A program made the translations under genes and the position numbers. Below are positions 6,137 to 52,782 of a stretch of DNA of 64,000 nt, one piece after another. The stretch is from Trifolium pratense (taxonomy: Eukaryota; Streptophyta; Magnoliopsida; Fabales; Fabaceae): positions 4,176,001 through 4,240,000 of the forward strand of contig NC_060064.1 of assembly GCF_020283565.1 (NCBI RefSeq), written 5' to 3'. The notes beneath the pieces were generated by a model. It saw nothing but the letters and a program-made list of their open reading frames with translations, did not search any database and had not been told where the DNA came from. Positions within the stretch are counted from its first letter, which is position 1. Each line of letters begins with the position of its first letter.

Positions 6137-7245
6137 GGGATTGGTTATTATACATAAGCTATCTTTATGCACCATGCATAAGTTACTTAGTGCACCCCCC
6201 AAATTACTTGTGCACCCCCCAAATTACTAGCACACCCCCAAATTTCTCATGCACCCCCCAAATTACTTGTGCACCCCCAAATTTCTCATGCACCCCCAAA
6301 TTTCTCATGCACCCCCAAAATTTCTCGCACACCCCCAATATGACTTTTGCCCCCCAATTTTATTTTTTTGGTCCCCTCCACATTTCTAGCCTAAACCATT
6401 TTGTTGTGGGAATGGTTTCAGAGATATGCACTCCAAAACCATTAAGTGTATAAGATGGTTTTAGAGTACAACCCTATAATTAGAATACAAACAATAATTG
6501 TGATTTGAAACCATTTAACCAACATAATGGTTTCCAGAATTTTTAAAACCATATAAACACACATAAAACCATTTTACAATACAAATGGTTTCAGTGTATA
6601 ACTATCTGAAACCATTTAACCAACATAATGGTTTCCAGAATTTTTAAAACCATAAAAACACACATAAAACCATTTTACAATACAAATGGTTTCAGTGTAT
6701 AACTATCGGAAACCATTTAACCAGCATAATGGTTTCCAGAATTTTTGAAACCATAAAAACACACATAAAACCATTTTACAATACAAATGGTTTTAGTGTA
6801 TAACTATCTGAAACCATTTAACTGGTTTTAAATAATGATTATAATTGTACCAAAAAAAAACAATTATGATTCTAATTATAGGTTGTACTTCAAAACCATC
6901 TTATGCACTTAATGGTTTTGGAGTGTATATTTTTGAAACCATTCCCACAGCAAAATGGTTTAGGCTTGAAATATGGGGGGTTAAAAAAAAATTGGGCGCA
7001 CAAGTCATCTGGGGGTGCGTGAAAAATTTTGGGGGGTGCGCTAGAAATTTGGGGGGGTGCACGAGAAATTTGGGGGTGCGCGAGTAATTTGGGGGGTACG
7101 TGAGAAATTTGGGGGGTGTGAGATTAGGTGTGAGTGTGTGAGTTGAGATTGGCTAGGATTATTACATGTGGATGCTCAATCTAATGGATGTTATTGACTT
7201 ATGTACCATGCATAAGGATTACACTTATGTATAATAACTTCTCCC
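6137..7245. mobile_element. Mutator-like foldback MITE with 9-bp target duplication
   Basis: The 1,109-bp element is flanked by CTTCGTAAC on both sides (6128-6136 and 7246-7254). The 9-bp duplication indicates a Mutator-like (MULE) origin. Its ends are inverted repeats sharing GTTATTATACATAAG. Both arms, roughly 450 bp each, are complementary. They contain runs of a CACCCCC-AAATTTCTC minisatellite on the left and its complement on the right. The open frames at 6190-6453 and 6845-7087 are products of these repeats. No transposase is present, so it is non-autonomous. Confidence 0.85.
6507..6822. repeat. 101-bp tandem repeat inside the foldback element
   Basis: Three units start at 6507, 6608 and 6709, each with GAAACCATTTAACC. 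A 13-bp start of a fourth follows at 6810. The units differ at only a few bases. They sit in the loop region between the element's inverted arms. Confidence 0.9.
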
Positions 7246-35293: not shown

Positions 35294-36456
35294 TTAAATG
35301 CAGTTTTGCCCTCCCTGTTTTGATTAAATCGGAATTTTATCCCCCCTGTTTTAAAACGCGGACTTTTACCCCCCTTGTTTTATAATTTTTTGGATTTTGC
35401 CCCCCCTAAAATTCTGCTTTCGAGTCACAACTTCAAAGCTTTGCACACAACTCAATTTGGATCAATAATTCACCAAAAGGATATCGAAATGACCGTAATC
35501 GAGTTATCTTTCCACAGAATCAAACCCTACTAAATTTGGAGTTACAAAGAGAGATTAATTACCGTTTTAGTGAAGGTATGTCCCCCAAAAATTATGCACA
35601 AAATCTGCTTTCGAGTCACAACTTCAAAACTTCGCACAGAATTCCATTTGGATCCATAATTCATCAAACGGATATCAAAATGACCGTAATCGAGTTATCT
35701 TTCCACAGAATCAAACTCCACTAAATTTGGAGTTACAGAGAGAGATTAATTATCATTTTAGTGAAGGTCTGTCCAAATCAATTATTGTATGGAACTACTA
35801 CTGGTATTTTTGTCATGTCTCTCACCCTGTAGCTCATTTTTCAATAGTATTTACATGTCCGGAAGGCTAACGAAATTACCTTTGTTTTCATTTAAATTTC
35901 GTCAAATTTGGAGTTATGATGTGTTTGGTAGACGATGTTGAATTTGAAGGTCATAAGTAGATTTCTGCAAAATTAGTAATTGGACAGACCTTCACTAAAA
36001 CTGTAATTAATCTCTCTTTGTAACTCCAAATTTAGTGGGGTTTGATTCTGTGGAAATCTAACTCGTTTATGGTCATTTCGGTATCCGTTTGGTAAATTAT
36101 TGATCCAAATTGAGTTGTGTGCGAAGCTTTGAAGTTGTAACTCGAAAAGCAGAATTTTGCAGAATTTTGGGGGACATATCTTCACTAAAACGGTAATTAA
36201 TCTCTCTTTGTAACTCCAAATTTAGTGGGGTTTGATTATGTGGAAAGCTAACTCGATTAAGGTCATTTCGGTATCCGTTTGGTGAATTATTGATCCAAAT
36301 TGAGTTGTGTGCGAAGCTTTGAAGTTGTGACTCGAAAGCAGAATTTTAGGGGGGCAAAATCCAAAATATTATAAAACAGGAGGGTAAAAGTCCGCATTTT
36401 AAAATAGGGGGTAAATTCCGATTTAATCAAAACAGGGGGGGCAAAACTGCATTTAA
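35294..36456. mobile_element. Large foldback (inverted-repeat) element
   Basis: The 1,163-bp element begins TTAAATGCAGTTTTGCCC and ends with its complement. Both arms carry GGATTTTGCCCCCCCTAAAA-type segments and an Asp/Arg-free repeat block containing caattaccgttttagtgaag. That block recurs four times in two orientations (near 35560, 35750, 35990 and 36185). The target duplication is not clear. There is no transposase. The frames at 35536 and 35973 are repeat-derived. Confidence 0.75.
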
Positions 36457-36596: not shown

Positions 36597-37243
36597 AATC
36601 ATAATAAATACGAGATCTTTAAAGTAGAATTAGATATCTAAACTAAATTGAATTAAAAGTTAAAAAAGTTATAAGGTAAAAGAGGCAACTATATCGACAA
36701 ATATCACTTGAAATTCATATATACACCCCCAATTTTTTTTAATGTAAATATTACCCCAAATCTCTGTCAAAACTCAAAACAGAGATTGTTACATAAAAAC
36801 TTGTCAAATGCTTAATCAAATAAAGAACATTTACAGATTGCGAAATTACCCTGAATCACTGTCAAAACAGAGATAATGCAACCAAATTATATTAAACTTA
36901 TCAAAATATTTAAAGTTACTTGGTTATTTGGCTAGTATTTTCTGATTATAGTTAAATTTACTCAAATATTTTTTGTAACCTTTGATCAACAACAATGCAA
37001 AATATTATCATAAACCAGTTTATAACGTGCAAGCTATAATCCAAACATCACACACAAAAACAAATTTAACAAAAATAGTATAAATTGCATTCAATAAAGA
37101 TTAGAAATACATCATCATTAACTAATGATCAACTAGCAACTAATAATCATTCTCCTTGTTTCCAAAACTAGTAAAAAATAAACCAAACGGAGTAGAATCT
37201 TCGTGATTAACAGAATCATTCATGAGATCCTCCACCGTTAAAA
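36597..37243. repeat. LEA-block duplication, 3' flank of copy A
   Basis: This matches 50714-51388 closely. The copies share the cgacaaatatcacttgaaat segment, the accccaaatctctgtcaaa segment and the 3' flank of the LEA gene. It is part of a segmental duplication that includes the LEA genes. Confidence 0.8.
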
Positions 37244-37649
37244 TTAGTTGTTAAGTTTCTTGCGGAGAAGTTTAGCTCGCAATTCAGCAGCGTCAACATC
37301 CTTAACATTTTCAGGCTTATAGTAACCGGTAACAGGATCCGGTACCCAAGAAACCTTGTAAGTAGAAACAACCTCTTCCCCTGTCTTTGTGGGTCCCATC
37401 TTGTTACCAATAGACACTGCTCCTCCCCTTGTTGCACTTTCTGTTGCAGCAGCGTAACCACGTCTGTTCAATTAATCAAAAATTACCATATTAAAAATCA
37501 CAACATTAAAATCATAATAAAAATTAATTAATGATAATTGATAACACTAATTAAGAAACACGTTACGTTACATACCTTGTGAGAGTGTTAGAGAATCCTT
37601 CAAGAACAATAGCGGAAAAAACCTTAGCGTTAGCGAAAGAACGAGCCAT
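37244..37649 (-). CDS. LEA_3 / SAG21-like late embryogenesis abundant protein, copy A
   Basis: Two exons (37576-37649 and 37244-37463) joined at an AG|A Arg codon give 97 residues. The N-terminus MARSFANAKVFSAIVLEG is an amphipathic, Arg-bearing presequence like those that send SAG21-type proteins to mitochondria. The C-terminal half has the family motif KVSWVPDPVTGYYKPEN. Family members are small stress-, senescence- or ABA-induced proteins linked to oxidative and dehydration tolerance. It differs from copy B at two residues. Introns are GT-AG. Confidence 0.92.
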
Positions 37650-37806
37650 TAGTGAATTTGATTAAATTGAGTGAGTGAAACAAAGATGTGTTGAATTTTG
37701 GTGAACTATGGAAAAAGCTTATTGTTGTTAGAAAGGAAATAAGCGCTTTTCCACAGTTTTAAAATTGAGTTTTGTGTGTTGTGAAGAGAAGTGGTGAGGG
37801 AGGCGC

Positions 37807-37814
37807 ATTATATA
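37807..37814 (-). promoter_or_regulatory. TATA box of LEA copy A
   Basis: CTATATAAT on the minus strand lies about 160 bases upstream of the ATG. It is conserved in copies B and C. Confidence 0.7.
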
Positions 37815-38217
37815 GGGATGAGAAAATATTAGGGTAAAAAAAAAAAAGATACGTATACGTGTCACGCGTGATTAGGAGATAATTTAGGTGCAAATTAAGC
37901 CAGAATATTAGCCGCGTCAATACCAAATCATTATTGTGTAACCAATGTTTTGTTGCCACCTGGCTGTAAAATAGTAGAGCCATGTGTTTTCTGTTTGCCA
38001 ATCATGATATGTAGAATCTTTTATTTTTAAAGGAAATATTTTATCTTAAATAATATTTAACCAAATTTTTTTTTATTTTATAATAAGAATAAGATATCAT
38101 TATTAAATTTAGGAGTAGTAAATCGTAACAAATCTTATTTCTTTCTTTCTTGTGAACCATGAGAAGAAGTTTCCAAAAAAATATGTAAAGTAAAAATGAA
38201 GGGCGGGGATAAAGTTA

Positions 38218-38627
38218 GTCTATGTTTGATAAAATTAAGCTATAAGTCAGTTTATAGCTGATAAGTCAGTTGATAGCAGAAAAACTAACTTATAACTGAT
38301 AGCTGAAAAACTAGTTGATTGAAATTAAAGTGTTTGGTAAAATTATCTTTTTAAATGATTGATAAATATAAAAAGACATTTATATGTAGTGGGTAGTTTT
38401 TTTTAGCGGGTAATTTTTTATTTTATAAAAAATAATAAAATTAAATTAAAGGTTAAAAATGAAAAAAAATCATAAAAGACTATAAGCTATAAGCTCAAAC
38501 GCTACTTGAAATAGCATCTCAAAAAACGCTATAAGCTCGTGAGAAATGCTTTTTACCGAACACTTTTATTTTTTCAAACAAGCTTATAAGCCATAAGCTA
38601 TCTTATTGGAGTTACCAAACATACATT
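38218..38627. mobile_element. Tourist-like MITE with proven empty site
   Basis: The 410-bp element is flanked by TTA (38215-38217 and 38628-38630). Its ends are GTCTATGTTTGATAA and, on the complement, AATGTATGTTTGGTAAC. The paralogous block at about 48237-48250 reads AAAGTTAATCG without the insert, which fixes the borders exactly. Confidence 0.88.
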
Positions 38628-40092: not shown

Positions 40093-40659
40093 ACCTCTAA
40101 TCACGTTAAAGAAAATCTTTATCTTTTAGATTTGTCGCATGACTATAGAATGATGTTTTTTTTTTTTACAATAAAGTAAAGAATTGTATTATGCACCCAA
40201 ATAATTCCATATATAATTTAGAACTTCTTTAACGCTTCAAGTTTGGTGCTCTAAGTTTTATACCCATATGACCGAGTATCATTGTTAAGTACAGTAATAT
40301 AAGTAAAATAAATTTTAAAATTCAGACATATATTCTAAAATGTAAAACAAAAAACATGTTTCATATGAAATTAGTGTCAATTTATTAAAATGACGAATCG
40401 ACCAAATGAAGAAAAATTATAAAATTCTATGTAATTACTTCGTCAAATTATATTTACATTACCAATTTGTAACTTTTAAATTAAATTTTTATTGGTTGAC
40501 ATATTTTTATTTTTTTTGTTTAATAAAAACAATGCATAAAAATTATTCTCCAAATAAATACAACTGAAGTTGCAAAATTTAATGTAAATATTAAAACAAA
40601 AAATTGATTAACTAAATATTGAGATCCTTCAAAAAAAAAAAAAAGAAGTAAATATTGAG
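40093..40659. other. Remainder of LEA-block copy A and U1A upstream flank
   Basis: Sequence at 40124-40280 aligns with 52222-52345 (atttgtcgcatg, tatgcacccaaa, ttctttaacgct, agtttggtgctcta), so the duplicated block resumes after the insert. Beyond 40280 nothing is recognised. Confidence 0.6.
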
Positions 40660-44000: not shown

Positions 44001-44899
44001 AACAAAGAACAGACTTATGCTATGCTTTTGACTTTTTACTGTCTAGGATGGATGCAACTCTTTTAATGAAAAGCATTGTAATATGCTGTGTATAAATATA
44101 TTTACATAGTTAAGTTACATATTCAATTACATATTTTGGCAGGCAAAAAACGAAAGGACCAAAACGATGCTAATTTAGCTGGAATGGGAATAAATCCTGC
44201 TTATTCTGCTTACGGTGCAACACCTGCTGTAAGTTCCTCTGCTGCTGTAGTTTATTTTAGTGGGCATGTTGTAGGCATTTTAATATGCTAGTACTGTCTC
44301 ATACTCTCATTTAAATCGAGCATCTTATAATCCATATCATTTTATGGTCATTTTTCTTGAACTGACGTTTCTTTGCCATTCGTTGGCCTGCCTATGAAAC
44401 ATATTTTTTGATTTTCTGATAAAAGCCCGACTCAAAAAATAAAACAAAGAAAAAAATGTTTCCCTTCTAAAAAATGAGATAGTGCTATCTTCAACATAAA
44501 TGAAGATGAGATGACACTATCTGTTTCAAAGCAAGTTATTCTAATACATGGAAGCATGAACAATTTTGTTTCTGCATTTGTTACACGCTCTTTCTAATAA
44601 TGCAGTTATCCCAGATACCTTATCCAGGCGGTGCAAAATCCATGGTACCTGAGGCTCCTGCACCACCAAATAATATTCTCTTTATTCAGAATCTTCCCAA
44701 CGAGACCACTCCCATGATGTTGCAAATGCTCTTTCTTCAATATCCTGGGTTCAAGGAAGTTAGAATGGTTGAAACAAAGCCAGGAATTGCCTTTGTGGAA
44801 TATGGAGATGAGATGCAATCCACAGCGGCTATGCAGGCACTGCAAGGTTTCAAGATAACCCCTCAAAACCCTATGTTGATAACTTATGCCAAGAAATAG
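41086..44899 (+). CDS. U1A: U1 small nuclear ribonucleoprotein A (U1A)
   Basis: The spliceosomal U1A protein binds U1 snRNA stem-loop II. Five exons (41086-41170, 41251-41423, 43273-43366, 44143-44228, 44606-44899) splice to 243 residues, all at GT-AG sites. RRM1 has RNP2 IYINNL (16-21) and RNP1 KGQAWVIF (56-63). RRM2 has RNP2 ILFIQNL (about 170-176) and RNP1 GIAFVEY (about 206-212). The linker carries the nuclear-type basic stretch PREKRKRH. I prefer U1A over U2B'' because of [22 protein letters not shown] and the PYPGG linker, which fit plant U1A. Intron 2 is 1.85 kb. Confidence 0.93.
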
Positions 44900-46239
44900 A
44901 CACTGATTTATCCAACTTATGCTGTAAGAATGGCAAGAATCATATATCTTTGCATAGAGTTGTCAATCCATCCAATGCAATAGTTTATCTTCTTAATTGT
45001 TGTTTACCCTTAGCAGCTTCGCGTCTTGTATGATTGTAGTTAGGGTAATAACTTTTAACATTTTTATAAAAATCTGTATTTGTTAAATTACTATCTTTTT
45101 TTTTTTTTTTTTATTCTGGTAAATTACTATCTGGTTCAAGTTTATCCATCACATTCTCTGGATTTGTCATTTGTCTTGCACTTTTCTTGTTTGATGGGGA
45201 TTTCCTATAATTTTTGCTGGATGAATGTAAATTAATACATGATCTTTTTTTTTTGCTGAAGTACAAGACTATTTAAATCATCCTCTCTTGCTACTTCTTT
45301 GGTTATAATGAATGCGTCACCAAATAAAGTTTTTGCTTCATACAAGATGCACACGCCAATATTTATTATTTAATCCACTAGTCCTTAGATTTTTATAATG
45401 ACCTCATCAAGAATCTACCTTCATTTCTTGCACAACAAGGTAAAAATAAGAGAGCATGATCACTTAAAGTGATAACAACTCCAAACTGACACTAAACATA
45501 CTTTTCACCTTTTGTGATGAGGTAATAGAGGTATGGCATTTTGTGGCGGAGTGTTCTTTTTCTGAGACCAAAACATTAACTATAAACATTGTTCCTTAAA
45601 TACTCTGTCTCTCAAAATTGCATCGATATATAGTACCCATATTTCTCACACTTTGCTCAAGTTAAACTTGCACTTCCACACTCACTTTATCTTTCACTTT
45701 CATCAAACTCTAGGTGTGAATGATCTTTATAGGTTGAGAACTCTTTGTTGGAGAAGCTGGCAGGACACGTGCAATACCATCGGATCTCGAATAATGCATA
45801 TCATGTCATCGAGGAATAAGACCTAATTTGAGTGATATTTTACTGTAATGTGTTAACATTAACAACCTAAGATGACAATTGAGCTGAATTTCTAATTTCC
45901 AATGGGATTGTTGTGTCATCTGATATTATTGTCACATCATAAAGTAACATCCAGCTTAACTCAAATGTTTAACAATTAGACAAAGTCATAAAGAATCAAA
46001 ACCAAATTTCATTGATTTAAAATTAGTAAATTGAAATGTACAAGAACTTGTTTTAACTTCAAACTAAGGATACCAAAATACACATTCATTAATCTACATA
46101 ATCTCAGTGGTAAGCTTCTACTTATTTGTATCAGTCATCAACCTTTCATCATTTGCTTCATGAAAACTTTTGCTCTATCATCATTATCATAACTCCCAGA
46201 TGTGAAGAAAGAAAGCATTGAGCATGTTGTATACAACAC
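44900..46239. other. Intergenic, U1A to MED31
   Basis: This contains the U1A 3' region and the 3' flank of the convergent MED31 gene. It is AT-rich and no other gene is seen. Confidence 0.5.
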
Positions 46240-47847
46240 TCACTTTCTTTTCCTTTTACCAACCGTAGGATTCCTTGTGTCATTTTTTGCAAGACCAGAA
46301 CCATATGGCATTGGAAGTGGTTTAGGTAAAATGTGTTTTAGCCGATTGTTCCTATGGTTCTTCCAGAAATAGAACTGCTGTCTATGCACCAATTCCTAAA
46401 ATAGAAAAATAAATAAATAAATAAAATTGTCAATCTAAGAAACACAAGGCAAAGCAAATCTTAAACATATTTACTTCAAGGAGGTGAAATGCAAATAATC
46501 TGGCTTTGATTCAACTATATATGTGCATAATTAACCAAGTAAACAGATAATCTATTAGTGACATAAGATAGATACAGCAAAGCAGGAATCAAACCCATTC
46601 TTATCAATACCTACCACATCACAATTTCACAAAACAATAGACGATAGATTTCCCTACAAAGAGATTATTTAAGTAAAATGACACGGCATCTATATATATC
46701 TAACTTTTTCTCAATTCACAGTTTAAAACAAACTTTGTTATCAAAGATTACTATTAAAAAAATGATAGAGAATGGTTTAACTAACATATCACATGACCAC
46801 TCTAATATGAAATCCATGAGAAATCGTGATTTTGTAAAAGGATAGAAAGATATCACTATAACACTATTTACCTTATTGGTAGGATGTGCCATTGCTTTGC
46901 GAAAATTTGCATTCTGAAGAAGCTCAAGAAAATAGAGGCAGTGAGGATACCTAGTATTCGTAGAAAATGAGCAACTAAATCAGAAAGCAACCCATTTGAA
47001 CAAAGCATCAGTAGAATGAATAAAAATGACAGAACTGCTTCAAAAAAAATTGTTGCATAATGCTTACATAATAAACTTAATATATTCAGGACGTTGCCAA
47101 TACTGAAGATACTTTAAGTACTCAATGAATGCTTCATCCTCAAAATATCGGTTCTGAGCCAAATCTGTTCAAAATGCAACAGCCACATATGTAGCTATTA
47201 CTTAATGAAGCTGAAACTCTTAAAAACATATTGATAAAATGAAAATCATACAATGGATGTAGGCAGGATTAGCAAGGCATTGAACAAATTCCAGTTCAAG
47301 CAAAAACCGCCGCCGCCCATCATCCAAATCCTTGTATACATTCTTTGGCCTAAAGAAAAAGAAAAAACAACCATCAGTCCTTAAGCTAGCTCAACAGAAA
47401 ATTGAACATTTTTAATGAAGAAATCGATTAATGCAGACAAAATTAGAGTTTGTTGTATACGAAAAAACTTGAAAAGGGAACAAACTTCACACAGAACACA
47501 ACAAAAATACTATTAGTTATAGAGCTTTATATGGACAACCAATCAGACTTGGTTGGCTTACACTCATAACGTTTCTAGACAGTCAACAAAGAACTCAAAA
47601 TCAACCAGAAAGATAGAAATTAAGAGGAAAAGAAAAAGAATTGATCCCCATAATTTGTGTCAAGCCAACAAAGGATTCAGAAAAATGGAAAAAAAATCTC
47701 ATAAACAATCATATAAGTTTTGTATTAATTAATGATAACAATAGGAGTCTGAGAAACATGTTACGGTACATACCTTGTGAGAGTGTTGGAGAATCCTTCA
47801 AGAACAGTAGCAGAAAAAACCTTAGCGTTATCGAAAGAACGAGCCAT
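46240..47847 (-). CDS. Chimeric gene: LEA first exon joined to Mediator subunit MED31
   Basis: Five exons on the minus strand: 47774-47847, 47252-47349, 47068-47164, 46872-46950 and 46240-46395. The last four encode the conserved MED31/SOH1 core (for example FLLELEFVQCLANPAYIH, YLKYLQYWQRPEYIKFIM, HRQQFYFWKN) and a basic end KRKRK. MED31 normally acts in the nuclear Mediator complex that links transcription factors to RNA polymerase II. The first exon is a copy of LEA exon 1 (about 95% identical), giving MARSFDNAKVFSATVLEG. LEA exon 1 ends in AG and the MED31 exon starts with G, so the splice makes an Arg codon and keeps frame. The predicted product has 167 residues and no stop. All splice sites are GT-AG. 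I found no native MED31 first exon in the window. Expression of the fusion is inferred, not shown. Confidence 0.75.
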
Positions 47848-48330
47848 TAGTGAATTGATTAAATTGAGTGAGTGAAACACAAAGATGTGTTGAACTTTGT
47901 TGAACTATGGAAAAAGTTTGTTGTTAAGAGGAAATAAGCTTTTTTCCAGAGTTTTAAAATTGAGTTTGTTATTATGTTGTGAAGAGAAAGAGGTAAGGCG
48001 CAGTATATATAGGGATCAGAAAATAATAAGATACGCAAATCTTTTTTTAAGCAAATCTTTTTTTTTTAAGCAAATCTTTAATATTTAAGCAAATCTTTTT
48101 TTTTTTATAAAAATAAGATATGATTATTAGGAGTAGTAAGTAAATCGTAACAAATCTTTATTTCTTTCTTTCTTGTGAAGAAAGTATTACCATGAGAAGA
48201 AGTTTCGAAATATATAAAGTAAAAATGAAGGGTGGGGATAAAGTTAATCGAATGGTGGAAAAGTTGTGTGAAATGAGAAGTGTATAGCGGCGTCACATAA
48301 AAGAAATTTTTTGTCTTTTAAATTTGTCGC
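47727..48330 (-). repeat. LEA-block duplication, copy C (promoter, exon 1, start of intron)
   Basis: This copy aligns with the promoter, first exon and first part of the intron of LEA copies A and B. Homology ends in the intron near 47727, where unrelated sequence leading to MED31 begins. LEA exon 2 is absent. A TATA box, TATATATACTG on the minus strand, is kept near 48003-48012. Confidence 0.8.
48003..48012 (-). promoter_or_regulatory. TATA box of the LEA-MED31 chimera
   Basis: CTATATATAC on the minus strand is at the same place, relative to the ATG, as in LEA copies A and B. It is about 160 bases upstream of the start codon. Confidence 0.65.
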
Positions 48331-48500
48331 ATGGAAATACTTTCTTCACAAGGAAAAAGGAAAATAAAAGGTTGAGATCTACTACAGTCGGAGCGGACAA
48401 GTGACTGTTAGATCAAGAGACAGAGAAGTTAGATAATTGAACAAATGTGACCGTACCTGACAAAGTATAGATTGATTAAAGCTATAGCTAATTAGCAAAA

Positions 48501-49660
48501 TGTTATCTAGTTAGTTAGTTAGTTAGTTAGAAAACTAGCAACACAAGTTAGTGAGTTAGTTGTGATTTTATTAGTTAGATGAGGTAGTTAAAAGTTTGTT
48601 AGATCTATCTCATCTATATAAGACTCATTACACTTGTATCATTAACTAATTCAATCAATCATATACTGTATTCCTTTCATCTTCTTTACAAGCTAGAGCT
48701 TTTGTTTTCTCCATCAATGGAGTTTTATTCTTTACTTTTGGTATCAGCTTTATTCTTTACTATGTTCATCCCAACTTACAAGCACTTAAACAAGTGTTAC
48801 TATTAAGGCATTGTTTTGAAGGCCTTTTGGTGTATATTGACTCTGCTTCTCAGGCTTGGGAAGATTTGAAGGCGCGTGCTGATCGTGTGCGAGTTTCTTC
48901 TCTTCAACGGGAAATGTATGCTCTCCGTCAAGATTCTTGCTCCGTCACTGAATTCTTTACAAAATTGAAGGGTTTTTGGGAGGAATTGGAGCTGTATCGT
49001 CCTGTGCCTGATTGCACATCCACTTTTCGTTGCAAGTGTGAAGATATGAGAAACACCAAAAAGTTTAAAGAACAAGATTTGGTGCTTCTCTTTCTCACAG
49101 GTTTGAATGATCATTATGCAATGGTAAGATCTCAGATTCTATTAATGGAACTTTTTCCCCAATTGAATGCTGCTTTTGGATTAGTAATTCAGCATGAAAG
49201 TCTTAATGGTTTAGAAACTATAAGTGATTCATTGGATAATTCTGCTTCTATCAATTTTGCACGCAAACCGTTTGGCAAAAGTCCTGCTTCTTCCAAAAAT
49301 GACAAAATGTGCACTTATTGTGGATAATTGCTTTAAGAAGCATGGATTTCCACCGGGCTATAGATTCAAAGACGGTACTCTAGCTGTTAATAAACATCAC
49401 GGACAGGCTAGTGCACACTATGGACAGGCTAGTGCAAACCATGTTGCTAGTGAGGATCATGGAGGCAAAAATGCTGTGGATAATCGGATAGCCACATTCA
49501 ACTCTCAGGAATATCAACCTTTGATGGCTTTATTGAAATCCAACAGTCAAAATGCAGGTGAAGGAACTTCACAAGTGAATAGCATCACCAAAGTCATTGC
49601 TTCTTCTTACTGCAATGACAAGCAAGGTATTGGCTTTACTCCATTAGTTCTATTTTGCGG
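48501..49660 (+). pseudogene. Truncated Copia element: LTR remnant and broken gag
   Basis: An LTR-like segment starts TGTTATCTAGTTAG with (TTAG)n. It is followed by a Met-tRNA type primer-binding site, TGGTATCAGC (48739-48748). Gag then runs from about 48794 (SASQAWEDLKAR, SVTEFFTKLKGFWEELE, QDLVLLFLTGLNDHYAMVRSQI) to a zinc-knuckle start, MCTYCG, and a stop at 49325-49327. A shifted frame continues with NCFKKHGFPPGYRFKDG. There is no protease, integrase or RT. The element is cut off. Confidence 0.75.
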
Positions 49661-49878
49661 TATAATGTTATATCTGTAAGCTTAATTACCTCTCGGCATA
49701 AAGGACATCTTTCTCTAGGACTTGCTGCCTTAAGTCCATCGACAATAGATACTGATGCAGCCGGAGCAAGCACAAATGTAACAGAATATATGACCGCAAG
49801 TCAGAGAAACTGGATCAAACACTGTGTCCTGTCATCCAAGAGCCAAATGACGAACGATGTCAACATTATATATATGAG

Positions 49879-50280
49879 GGCTTTTTCTAACATGCACAAT
49901 CAACTCATGTGGTGCATGGTGCGCAAATTTCGAATAACATTATAATGAATACGAATTTTACAAAATCGACCGTTGGATTGAAAGATTATATCATATAGAT
50001 CATCCATATAATTTTTAGAAAAATCGAAAATCATTTGATATGTTAATGAGACCCATCAAAATTAACGGTTTATGAGTTTTTATTAAATACCGTTAATTTT
50101 GATGGGTCTCAATAACATATGAAATGATTTTCAATTTTTCTAAAAAAATCTATGGATGATCTATATGATATAATTTTTCAATCCAATGGTCAATTTTGTA
50201 AAATTCGTATTCGTTATAATGTTATTCGAGACTTGTGCACCATGCACCACATAAGTCACTTGTGCATGTTAGACTTGCCC
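49879..50280. mobile_element. Mutator-like foldback MITE
   Basis: The element is about 402 bp and almost entirely palindromic. Arms share TCTAACATGCACAA, TCGAATAACATTATAA, GAATACGAATTTTACAAAAT and TTGGATTGAAA. Flanks ATATATGAG (49870-49878) and ATGTATGAG (50281-50289) match at 8 of 9 bases. No coding capacity. Confidence 0.75.
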
Positions 50281-50289
50281 ATGTATGAG

Positions 50290-50713
50290 ATACTTTAGAC
50301 CATCTACAAATAAGATGTTTACAAGCATCCTTTTTTGGATAAGAATAAAAGTTTCCTTCAAATTAAAAATATATATCCATAATCATTAACTTGACTAGAT
50401 CAAATAGACGGCCTCAGTGTATGAGCAAGTCAAATGAAAAATACGAATGTTCCTAATGCACATAAATTGGGGAAGAATTCATAAAAAATTAACTTACCAA
50501 GCATATAGAACAAGTCAAGTTAAGATCAATTTTGATAGAATCAAAGAGGTCACAAATCTTTACATAAACTTCTTTTTCTTTTTTAAAAATTATAAGTAAC
50601 AAAAAAAAATGTTGTTGTGGCAGCTGATTCACTTAAGTGATTTGTTACATAAGCATTGACTTGGTCAAAATTGACATTTTGCAAAAGGGATAAACATAGG
50701 GGGCCAACTAGAT
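50290..50713. other. Intergenic, nothing recognised
   Basis: AT-rich DNA between the foldback element and LEA-block copy B. No gene is seen. Confidence 0.45.
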
Positions 50714-51388
50714 CATAATAAATACGAGATCATAATAAAATAGAATTAGATATCTTAACTAAATACGAGATCTTTAAAGTAGAATTAGATATCTTAACTA
50801 AATTGCATTAAAAGTTAAAAGAGTTAGAAGGGAAAAGAGACAACAATATCGACAAATATCACTTGAAATTCATATATACACCCCCAATTTTTTTTAATGT
50901 AAATATTACCCCAAATCTCTGTCAAACAGAGATTGTGTAACAATTAAATAAAAACTTGTCAAATGCTTAATCAAATAAAGAACATTTACAGATTGCGAAA
51001 TTGCTCTGAATCACTGTCAAAACAGAGATAATGCAACCAAATTATATTAAACTTATCAAAATATTTAAAGTTACTTTGTTATTTGGGTAGTATTTTTCTG
51101 ATTATAGTTAAATTTACTCAAATATTTTTTGTAACTTTTGATCAACAACAATGCAAAATATTATCATAAACCAGTTTATAACGTGCAAGCTATAATCCAA
51201 ACATCACACACCAAAACAAATTTAACAAAAATAGTATAAATTGCATTCAATAAAGATTAGAAATACATCATCATTAACTAATGATCAACTAGCAACTAAT
51301 AATGTTTCCAAAACTAGTAAAAAATAAACCAAACTGAGTAGAATCTTCGTGATTAACAGAATCATTCATGAGATCCTCCACGTTAAAA
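50714..51388. repeat. LEA-block duplication, 3' flank of copy B
   Basis: This is the counterpart of 36597-37243, with small indels and a short internal duplication of tagaattagatatcttaact at about 50745-50800. Confidence 0.8.
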
Positions 51389-51812
51389 TTAGTTGTTAAG
51401 TTTCTTGCGGAGAAGTTTAGCACGTAATTCAGCAGCGTCAACATCCTTAACATTTTCAGGCTTATAGTAACCGGTAATAGGATCCGGTACCCAAGAAACC
51501 TTATAAGTAGAAACAACCTCTTCCCCTGTCTTTGTGGGTCCCATCTTGTTACCAATAGACACTGCTCCTCCCCTTGTTGCACTTTCTGTTGCAGCAGCGT
51601 AACCACGTCTGTTCAATTAATAAAAAATTACCATATTAAAAATCACAACATTAAAATCATAATAAAAATTAATTAATATTAATATTAATATTAATGATAA
51701 TTGATAACACTAATTAAGAAACACGTTACGTTACATACCTTGTGAAAGTGTTAGAGAATCCTTCAAGAACAATAGCGGAAAAAACCTTAGCGTTAGCGAA
51801 AGAACGAGCCAT
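51389..51812 (-). CDS. LEA_3 / SAG21-like protein, copy B
   Basis: Two exons (51739-51812 and 51389-51608) give 97 residues, with the same structure as copy A. The differences are Phe for Leu near the end of exon 1 (SNTFT) and Ile for Val in WVPDPITGYY. The intron has an expanded (ATTAAT)n tract at about 51670-51695. It is probably functional and probably stress-induced, like its family. The promoter TATA box lies near 51968-51976. Confidence 0.92.
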
Positions 51813-52345
51813 TAGTGAATTTGATTAAATTGAGTGAGTGAAACAAAGATGTGTTGAATTTTGGTGAACTACGGAAAAAGCTTATTTGTTAGAGAGGAAA
51901 TAAGCTTTTTTCCACAGTTTGAAAATTGAGTTTGGTGTGTTGTGAAGAGAATTGGTGAGGGAGGCGCATTATATAGGGATGAGAAAATATTAGGGTAAAA
52001 AAAAAGATACGCGCGTAAAAATAAGATTTAAGCAAATCTTTTTTTTTTTTAATAAGAATAAGATATCATTATTAGGAGTAGTAAATCGTAACAAATCTTT
52101 ATTTCTTTTTTTCTTGCGAAGAAAGTATTACCATGAGAATTCCAAAATATATAAAGTAAAAATGAAGCGCGGAGATAAAGTTAATCGAGGCGAGGTCACA
52201 TAAAAGAAATTTTTTGTCTTTTAAATTTGTCGCATGGCTAAAGAATTGTGTTATGCACCCAAACAATTCCATTTGTATAAATAATTTAGAGCTTCTTTAA
52301 CGCTCTAAGTTTGGTGCTCTAATTTCTATATACATATGGCCGAAT
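51813..52345. repeat. LEA-block duplication, promoter flank of copy B
   Basis: This aligns with 37650-38215 and 40124-40280 of copy A and with 47848-48330 of copy C. It lacks the MITE and the probable solo LTR found in copy A. Confidence 0.75.
51968..51976 (-). promoter_or_regulatory. TATA box of LEA copy B
   Basis: CTATATAATG on the minus strand, conserved in place with copies A and C. Confidence 0.7.
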
Positions 52346-52782
52346 ATTTCTGAGATGTCAATGAACAGGACGTCCTTCTATTTATCGATAATATCTTCCG
52401 TTTTGTCCAAGCCTGATCCGAAGTATCGGCCTTATTGGGCCGAATGTCTTCCGTTGTGGGTTATCAACCTACCCTAGGTACTGAAATGAGTATTTACAAG
52501 AAAGAATTACTTCTACCAAAGAATTATCTATAACTTCTATTCAAGCAGTTTATGTACCTAACGGATTTGGATCATCTCCAATTTTCCTTTATGTTTTCTT
52601 TCATTTTTCTTAATTTAAGGGTCGGTAAATTATAAAGAATAAAAAGGAGAGAAAATCAATCATTAGATTAAGAAAAAATGAGAGAAAAAATGAGGGAAAA
52701 TTGGAGAGGATTCAAATCCTCCATATGAATGTGCATCACTGTTAAGTAGTAATAGTTAAAGAGAGGACGTGTATTATCTCAC
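52346..52782. other. Intergenic, nothing recognised
   Basis: No gene or bounded repeat is supported in this stretch. Confidence 0.4.

Follow-up and report, generated by a model that had tools for sequence, protein, structure and literature searches.

An in-frame LEA–MED31 chimeric gene in Trifolium pratense with a first intron drawn from three genes

At one locus of red clover (Trifolium pratense), the first exon of a LEA gene stands upstream of exons encoding the Mediator subunit MED31, which raises the question of whether the two form a real gene, how they came to be joined, and what, if anything, the product does. The stretch of DNA analysed here (64,000 nucleotides, hereafter the window) had been described in an earlier note, made from the sequence letters, as carrying an in-frame fusion of this kind.

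The chimeric gene and its mosaic first intron

The presence of an in-frame LEA–MED31 chimera was confirmed: this is a real, exon-shuffled chimeric gene, in which parts of two unrelated genes sit in one open frame. It occupies 47847-46240 of the window (minus strand) and comprises five exons, 504 nt encoding 167 aa with no internal stop, and four introns, all of which are bounded by GT and AG. Its parts, and the two full LEA genes of the window, are as follows.

47848..48340, minus strand: LEA-derived 5' region, with a TATATA box from 48011 (alignment against both LEA copies, motif scan, self-BLAST)
47774..47847, minus strand: exon 1, which is exon 1 of a LEA_3 (SAG21/ARG2-type) gene, MARSFDNAKVFSATVLEGFSNTLTR, 74 nt, ending in phase 2 (LEA alignment)
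47729..47773, minus strand: LEA-derived start of intron 1, donor GTATGT; the LEA end reaches to about 47729, not placed to the base (alignment)
47575..47728, minus strand: middle of intron 1, from intron 1 of a MIF-like gene with two copies on contig C6 (genome DNA search and alignment)
47350..47578, minus strand: MED31-derived end of intron 1 (alignment with native MED31)
47252..47349, minus strand: exon 2, MED31 (comparison with native MED31)
47068..47164, minus strand: exon 3, MED31 (comparison with native MED31)
46872..46950, minus strand: exon 4, MED31 (comparison with native MED31)
46240..46395, minus strand: exon 5, MED31, including the stop, with a 120-nt in-frame gap relative to the native gene at about 46311 (comparison with native MED31)
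45814..46239, minus strand: MED31-derived 3' UTR and flank; homology to the native gene ends at 45814 (genome DNA search)
37244..37649, minus strand: LEA gene copy A, intact, 97 aa, exons 37649-37576 and 37463-37244 (alignment; Pfam LEA_3a, E 9.9e-31)
51389..51812, minus strand: LEA gene copy B, intact, 97 aa, exons 51812-51739 and 51608-51389 (alignment)

Most of the structure drawn in the earlier note withstood checking, namely (i) a LEA exon 1 (47774-47847) with ATG and GT donor, separated from MED31 exon 2 by an intron of 424 nt, (ii) a TATA box in the LEA-derived 5' region, approximately 164 bp before the ATG, (iii) matching phases, with exon 2 beginning at the third codon base as the phase-2 end of the 74-nt exon 1 requires, (iv) four open MED31 exons with canonical splice sites, and (v) the end of LEA homology inside intron 1. 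The claim of a duplicated LEA exon needed a correction: the copy at the chimera is truncated, and the window also holds two full LEA genes (starting at 37649 and 51812). A Pfam search of the chimera (E up to 1) returned Med31 as its sole match (E 7.4e-37, nearly the full profile, positions 2-93 of 95), and the LEA_3 domain (PF03242) was absent. No MED31 start independent of exon 1 was found, in that intron 1 is closed by stops in the MED31 frame and the last open stretch directly before exon 2 contains no Met; the protein as drawn therefore needs exon 1. The breakpoints fall inside introns, with compatible phases, and both parent types are present and intact, as LEA copies A and B and as a native MED31.

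Exon 1 of the chimera and approximately 490 bp upstream of it can be aligned to both LEA copies, and self-BLAST of the window matched the chimera's LEA part (47693-48334) to 51653-52237 with 77.5% identity (E 2e-142). Chance similarity is far exceeded both by this match and by the Med31 one. The TATATA box lies at about -164 in the chimera, compared with -163 and -165 in the full LEA genes, and the 156-nt leader between this box and the chimera's start codon is free of ATG. Relative to LEA copy A, exon 1 carries two replacements (A6D and I14T) and two silent changes. Across the LEA part, 74 of 517 positions differ from copy B and 92 of 517 from copy A, while A and B differ from each other at 59 of 517, counts that are probably inflated by alignment in A/T-rich repeats. 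The two full LEA_3 genes are themselves in tandem, 36598-37853 and 50752-52011 being 93.7% identical over about 1.26 kb; further upstream their matches become fragmented (38048-38220 and 40177-40279 with 52019-52347).

A DNA search with the chimeric gene covered a 413.6-Mb assembly of 90 contigs and yielded ten matching places, with seven candidates scored. Besides the window, these were the two LEA copies (A and B) and the MIF-like gene at two places on C6; C3 gave a match of 110 bp confined to intron sequence, and the remaining four were pieces of a single locus on C1 (5.618-5.620 Mb). The C1 locus was the sole other place with MED31 exons, giving two MED31 loci in the genome by DNA search alone. 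The earlier note saw no native MED31 first exon and had suggested that the genome be searched for one; its observation holds for the window but not for the genome, as the MED31 gene on C1 is intact and has its own first exon, MASKAESESPTDTPPSP, which ends in CC before the intron and thus in phase 2. Native exon 1 and LEA exon 1 consequently share one phase, so that the phase match in the chimera needs no special explanation. Over the 116-position core, no differences (0) were counted between the native T. pratense protein and its white clover (T. repens) counterpart (P0002). Retroposition was considered as the origin of the chimera's MED31 part and was ruled out, because its introns are retained. 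C1:5621719-5621901, which lies upstream of native exon 1 by approximately 1.1 kb, gives a 62% match to the first 59 residues of a longer T. repens MED31 variant.

Intron 1 of the chimera is a mosaic of three genes, running from LEA through approximately 154 bp of the MIF-like intron into MED31. The idea of intronic recombination therefore stood as regards the position of the breakpoints, but not as a two-gene junction, since a piece of a third gene's intron lies between them. The MIF-like piece carries 7 substitutions in 148 positions and 6 in 150 relative to the two copies on C6. That gene has an exon 1 reading MPCIYISTNLNLDG... and a later exon with ...AAYAEIISMGGINKEVKRKL...; the Pfam MIF profile gave E 0.16 on a 43-residue piece of exon 1, which is below the cut-off, and the name MIF-like also rests on what we take to be recognisable motifs in the gene's exons. 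Four bases at the second seam, CTAG (47578-47575), are common to the MED31 intron and one MIF-like copy (L010), where L011, the other copy, has CTTG; the A/T-rich first seam is not placed to the base. Sequence at C3:22206811-22206937 is 80% identical to the final 110 bp of MED31 intron 1, up to the exon 2 boundary, and the 8 kb around it matched none of the MED31 exons.

As judged from these bases, the CTAG overlap would fit microhomology-guided template switching or patch repair as the most likely manner of joining. The MED31 introns (48 substitutions in 865 positions relative to the native gene) and the MIF-like piece (7/148 and 6/150) show similar substitution levels, which fits a single event. 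Divergence is greater in the LEA part, so that the LEA duplication may predate the joining, implying more than one event; on sequence grounds, two steps, with the LEA gene duplicated first and the parts joined later, appear equally possible as one event.

Second copy and rate of change

A protein search identified a second sequence with the same joining, a 167-aa entry (P0001) titled "unnamed protein product [Trifolium pratense]". It is identical to the chimera at 165 of 167 residues and differs by M110T and G162S; the cluster to which it belongs has one further member. P0001 is encoded on a 69.9-Mb contig and the window locus lies on the 46.1-Mb contig C6, of which the window spans 4176001-4240000, indicating that P0001 derives from a different assembly or haplotype. 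Neither the window gene nor P0001 contains a disabling change. Among the 120 MED31-like proteins listed of 491, P0001 alone has the LEA exon-1 peptide, and among all 20 matches to LEA residues 1-40 it alone is without a LEA Pfam domain. Proteins of T. repens and T. subterraneum that match LEA residues 1-40 included no chimera; both species appear there with ordinary LEA proteins. The chimera was not found in the open literature on MED31 in Trifolium or on MED31 and the Mediator complex in Medicago truncatula. An AF2 model of P0001 with 33 further sequences had a mean pLDDT of 48.7, too poor to interpret.

Relative to plant MED31 (SOH1, PF05669), the chimera has exons 2-5 and matches almost the whole Med31 profile, but differs in its LEA-derived first exon, in faster amino-acid change, and in the 120-nt in-frame gap that removes 40 Pro-rich tail codons. 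The MED31 exons carry 17 substitutions in 427 aligned bases. In the codon alignment with the native gene 18 codons differ, ten by replacement and eight silently. The replacement at codon 125 stands beside a gap and was assigned to the native side, T. repens having the chimera's residues there, which leaves nine replacements on the fusion branch; the silent change at codon 119 depends on gap placement. With silent changes split equally between the branches, fusion-branch omega was 0.60 (95% interval 0.21-1.80; 8 silent changes), or 0.69 (0.23-2.18; 7 silent changes) when the alignment-dependent change was dropped, and with the introns as neutral yardstick it was 0.97 (0.42-1.97). Four pairwise methods gave dN/dS values of 0.29 to 0.59 between chimera and native gene. 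The dN/dS calculation proposed in the earlier note places omega of the fusion branch at about 0.6-1.0, with wide intervals that include 1. Neutrality of the chimera's MED31 replacement rate is not rejected, and an omega below 1 is also compatible with these data.

Indels and conserved positions were also compared with neutral expectation. Nineteen indels fall in the introns, compared with one, in frame, in the chimera's exons (a further 3-nt gap belongs to the native side). In neutral simulations that started from LEA exon 1 plus the native MED31 sequence, the probability that everything remained intact was 0.0014-0.097 over nine parameter sets, governed mainly by the indel rate; 20% of indels were set as in-frame, compared with 2 of 19 intron indels that are multiples of three, a setting that favours intactness. 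Across 119 plant homologs, 75 of the 116 core positions are conserved in 98% or more; one of the seven core replacements struck such a position, where 4.5 were expected (P 0.007), and four introduced a residue that also occurs elsewhere among plants (P 0.016), but the sites changed were of ordinary mean conservation (P 0.32). When M110T of P0001, which alters a residue that is M in all 119 plant homologs, was added, these P values became 0.025, 0.032, and 0.37. Set against human MED31, the replacements gave no significant result in a hypergeometric test (P 0.10). These conservation results represent several tests on seven changes, and since an open frame was a reason for studying the gene, its intactness is biased upward. 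With these limits, frame, splice sites, and conserved positions have been kept somewhat better than neutral expectation, a hint of some selection.

Possible expression, product, and targeting

With the three-part anatomy, the open frame, the second database copy, and the intact native MED31 all observed, we assign a probability of roughly 0.68 to the reading that this is a young chimera of the red clover lineage, made by exon shuffling within introns, and most likely a redundant, weakly constrained MED31 paralog without an essential role. According to this reading, a third, truncated tandem copy of a LEA_3 (SAG21/ARG2-type) gene would have supplied promoter, leader, and exon 1, to which the MIF-like intron piece and a partial MED31 (part of intron 1, exons 2-5, and 3' UTR) were presumably joined at the DNA level, with microhomology-guided template switching or patch repair as the likeliest mechanism. 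Transcription would proceed from the LEA core promoter and splicing would follow the gene as drawn, and the predicted product would be a MED31 core that bears 25 foreign residues at its N-terminus and ends in a shortened tail. MED7 is the partner of MED31; if the chimera acts at all, it would likeliest compete with native MED31 for MED7 where the LEA promoter is on, rather than work in mitochondria. The parents of this young chimera are still in the genome and its seams are legible almost to the base in an intron built from three genes; it offers a chance to follow the fate of a highly conserved Mediator subunit given a new promoter and N-terminus.

A less probable alternative, whose odds overlap with those of the preferred reading, is that the locus is open gene-fragment debris of the same origin, but yielding neither transcript nor protein. 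The omega interval that includes 1 is consistent with this, as is the company the gene keeps, its neighbours including a MITE-like repeat and remnants of a Copia element and of a RING gene; against it, the TATA box, leader, and start are retained, neutral simulations keep the gene intact in 0.14-9.7% of runs, and both the window gene and P0001 are free of disabling changes.

It is unlikely that the chimera is a functional new gene in the stronger sense of a selected MED31 isoform, placed under a LEA promoter and altering Mediator dosage or composition under particular conditions. Its frame, splice sites, and most conserved core positions are kept better than chance and the same open joining recurs in a second T. 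pratense sequence, but neutrality of the replacement rate is not rejected, the M110T change of P0001 strikes an otherwise invariant position among the 119 plant homologs, 40 tail codons are lost, and the copied 5' region contains no ABRE/DRE motif. Distinctly improbable is the further version in which a three-gene chimera formed by template switching in a single event and was kept by selection as a LEA-promoter-driven MED31 isoform; if that were so, cells of red clover that express LEA genes would make an alternative version of a Mediator middle-module subunit.

The motif result concerns the earlier proposal that MED31 had come under stress control. No ACGTG, CCGAC, or G-box (ABRE/DRE) was found in the 502 bp upstream of the chimera's ATG, and the same motifs were absent from 448 bp upstream of LEA copy B; the upstream region of copy A has one ACGTG. 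Stress control of MED31 thus stays speculative, the 502 bp of fused 5' region offering none of these motifs, even though a promoter of this kind might respond to stress with the consensus motifs missing. A rewired Mediator, also suggested in the earlier note, is likewise speculative: native MED31 is intact and conserved, and neutrality is not rejected for the rate of change in the chimera's MED31 part.

An organelle signal, which the earlier note thought might have been added to MED31, fared no better. The available text of one report (PMC6032150) describes LEA_3 proteins as mostly predicted or shown to be mitochondrial, and states that the LEA_3 protein LEA38 of Arabidopsis undergoes cleavage after Y28 and A29 and remains cytosolic when residues 33-43 are missing; Arabidopsis LEA5 is reported in mitochondria and chloroplasts in the available text of another (PMC9244843). 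The chimera keeps LEA residues 1-25, followed by PKNVYKDLDDG, and therefore has neither the cleavage region nor the downstream segment that LEA38 requires; judged against those LEA38 data, as given in the available text (PMC6032150), the LEA_3 import signal is incomplete, lacking the region at and after the cleavage site. Import of the chimera into an organelle is accordingly predicted to be unlikely, and the fuller reading, in which the LEA presequence sends MED31 to mitochondria or plastids, is very improbable. The organelle locations reported for LEA_3 proteins and LEA5 (PMC6032150 and PMC9244843, available text) and a helical moment of the N-terminus that is not reduced (0.365 compared with 0.242) speak for it, but only residues 1-25 of the signal are present, with a net charge of +1 instead of the +2 of the LEA parent, and the MED31 residues after the junction are acidic (DLDD). 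Neither a stress-driven Mediator nor an organelle MED31 is supported by the results here, although the former retains some probability. An assembly artefact uniting unrelated sequence is highly unlikely, as nothing was found in its favour, the same joining occurs in P0001, a T. pratense protein with two residue differences, and the parts have diverged from their sources rather than being identical to them.

Known systems and surroundings of the locus

Exon-shuffled chimeric genes are a known kind, among which the three-gene seam described here is unusually legible. Plant 5' targeting exons gained by shuffling include those of the cytochrome c1 precursor (Long et al. 1996) and the rps10 and rps11 presequences (PMC6198282, PMC2031878). 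As far as the available text of these reports goes, the chimera resembles them in that one gene's 5' exon was joined to the coding part of another, and differs in that (i) the target is a nuclear Mediator subunit, (ii) the acquired exon carries only part of the LEA import signal, (iii) the native gene persists, and (iv) a piece of a third gene lies in the intron. Compared with LEA_3/SAG21/ARG2 genes (PF03242), the chimera has their promoter region, leader, and exon 1, but not LEA exon 2 or the LEA_3 domain.

Chimeras produced by Pack-MULEs and Helitrons contain several gene fragments side by side, and the adjacent gene fragments at this locus are a point of likeness. The chimera appears to differ from them in being enclosed by nothing more than chance-like inverted pairs, which were short and weak (15-21 nt, 76-87%) in a scan of 44800-51000, and in its 3' flank (45000-45830), for which the genome search returned the window alone. 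When genome copies of both flanks were sought, the upstream side yielded the Copia fragment and the MITE-like repeat and the downstream side was found once, with nothing convincing that encloses the chimera.

Upstream of the LEA fragment, at about 48412-49679, lies a truncated retrotransposon with LTR and gag (Pfam Retrotrans_gag, E 0.006), which from its features we take to be of the Copia type; a copy with two LTR matches is present on contig C7. Beside the chimera, at 49681-49846, is a RING finger gene fragment with weak RING matches and stops in the stretch tested, presumably akin to the RING of NLA/BAH1-type ligases. It is followed at 49886-50273 by a near-palindromic, MITE-like repeat of approximately 390 bp, the outer arms of which are 88% complementary and which has many copies in the genome (a lower bound). 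Self-comparison of the window also revealed other clustered direct and inverted repeats, at 6231-7120 and 35294-36456.
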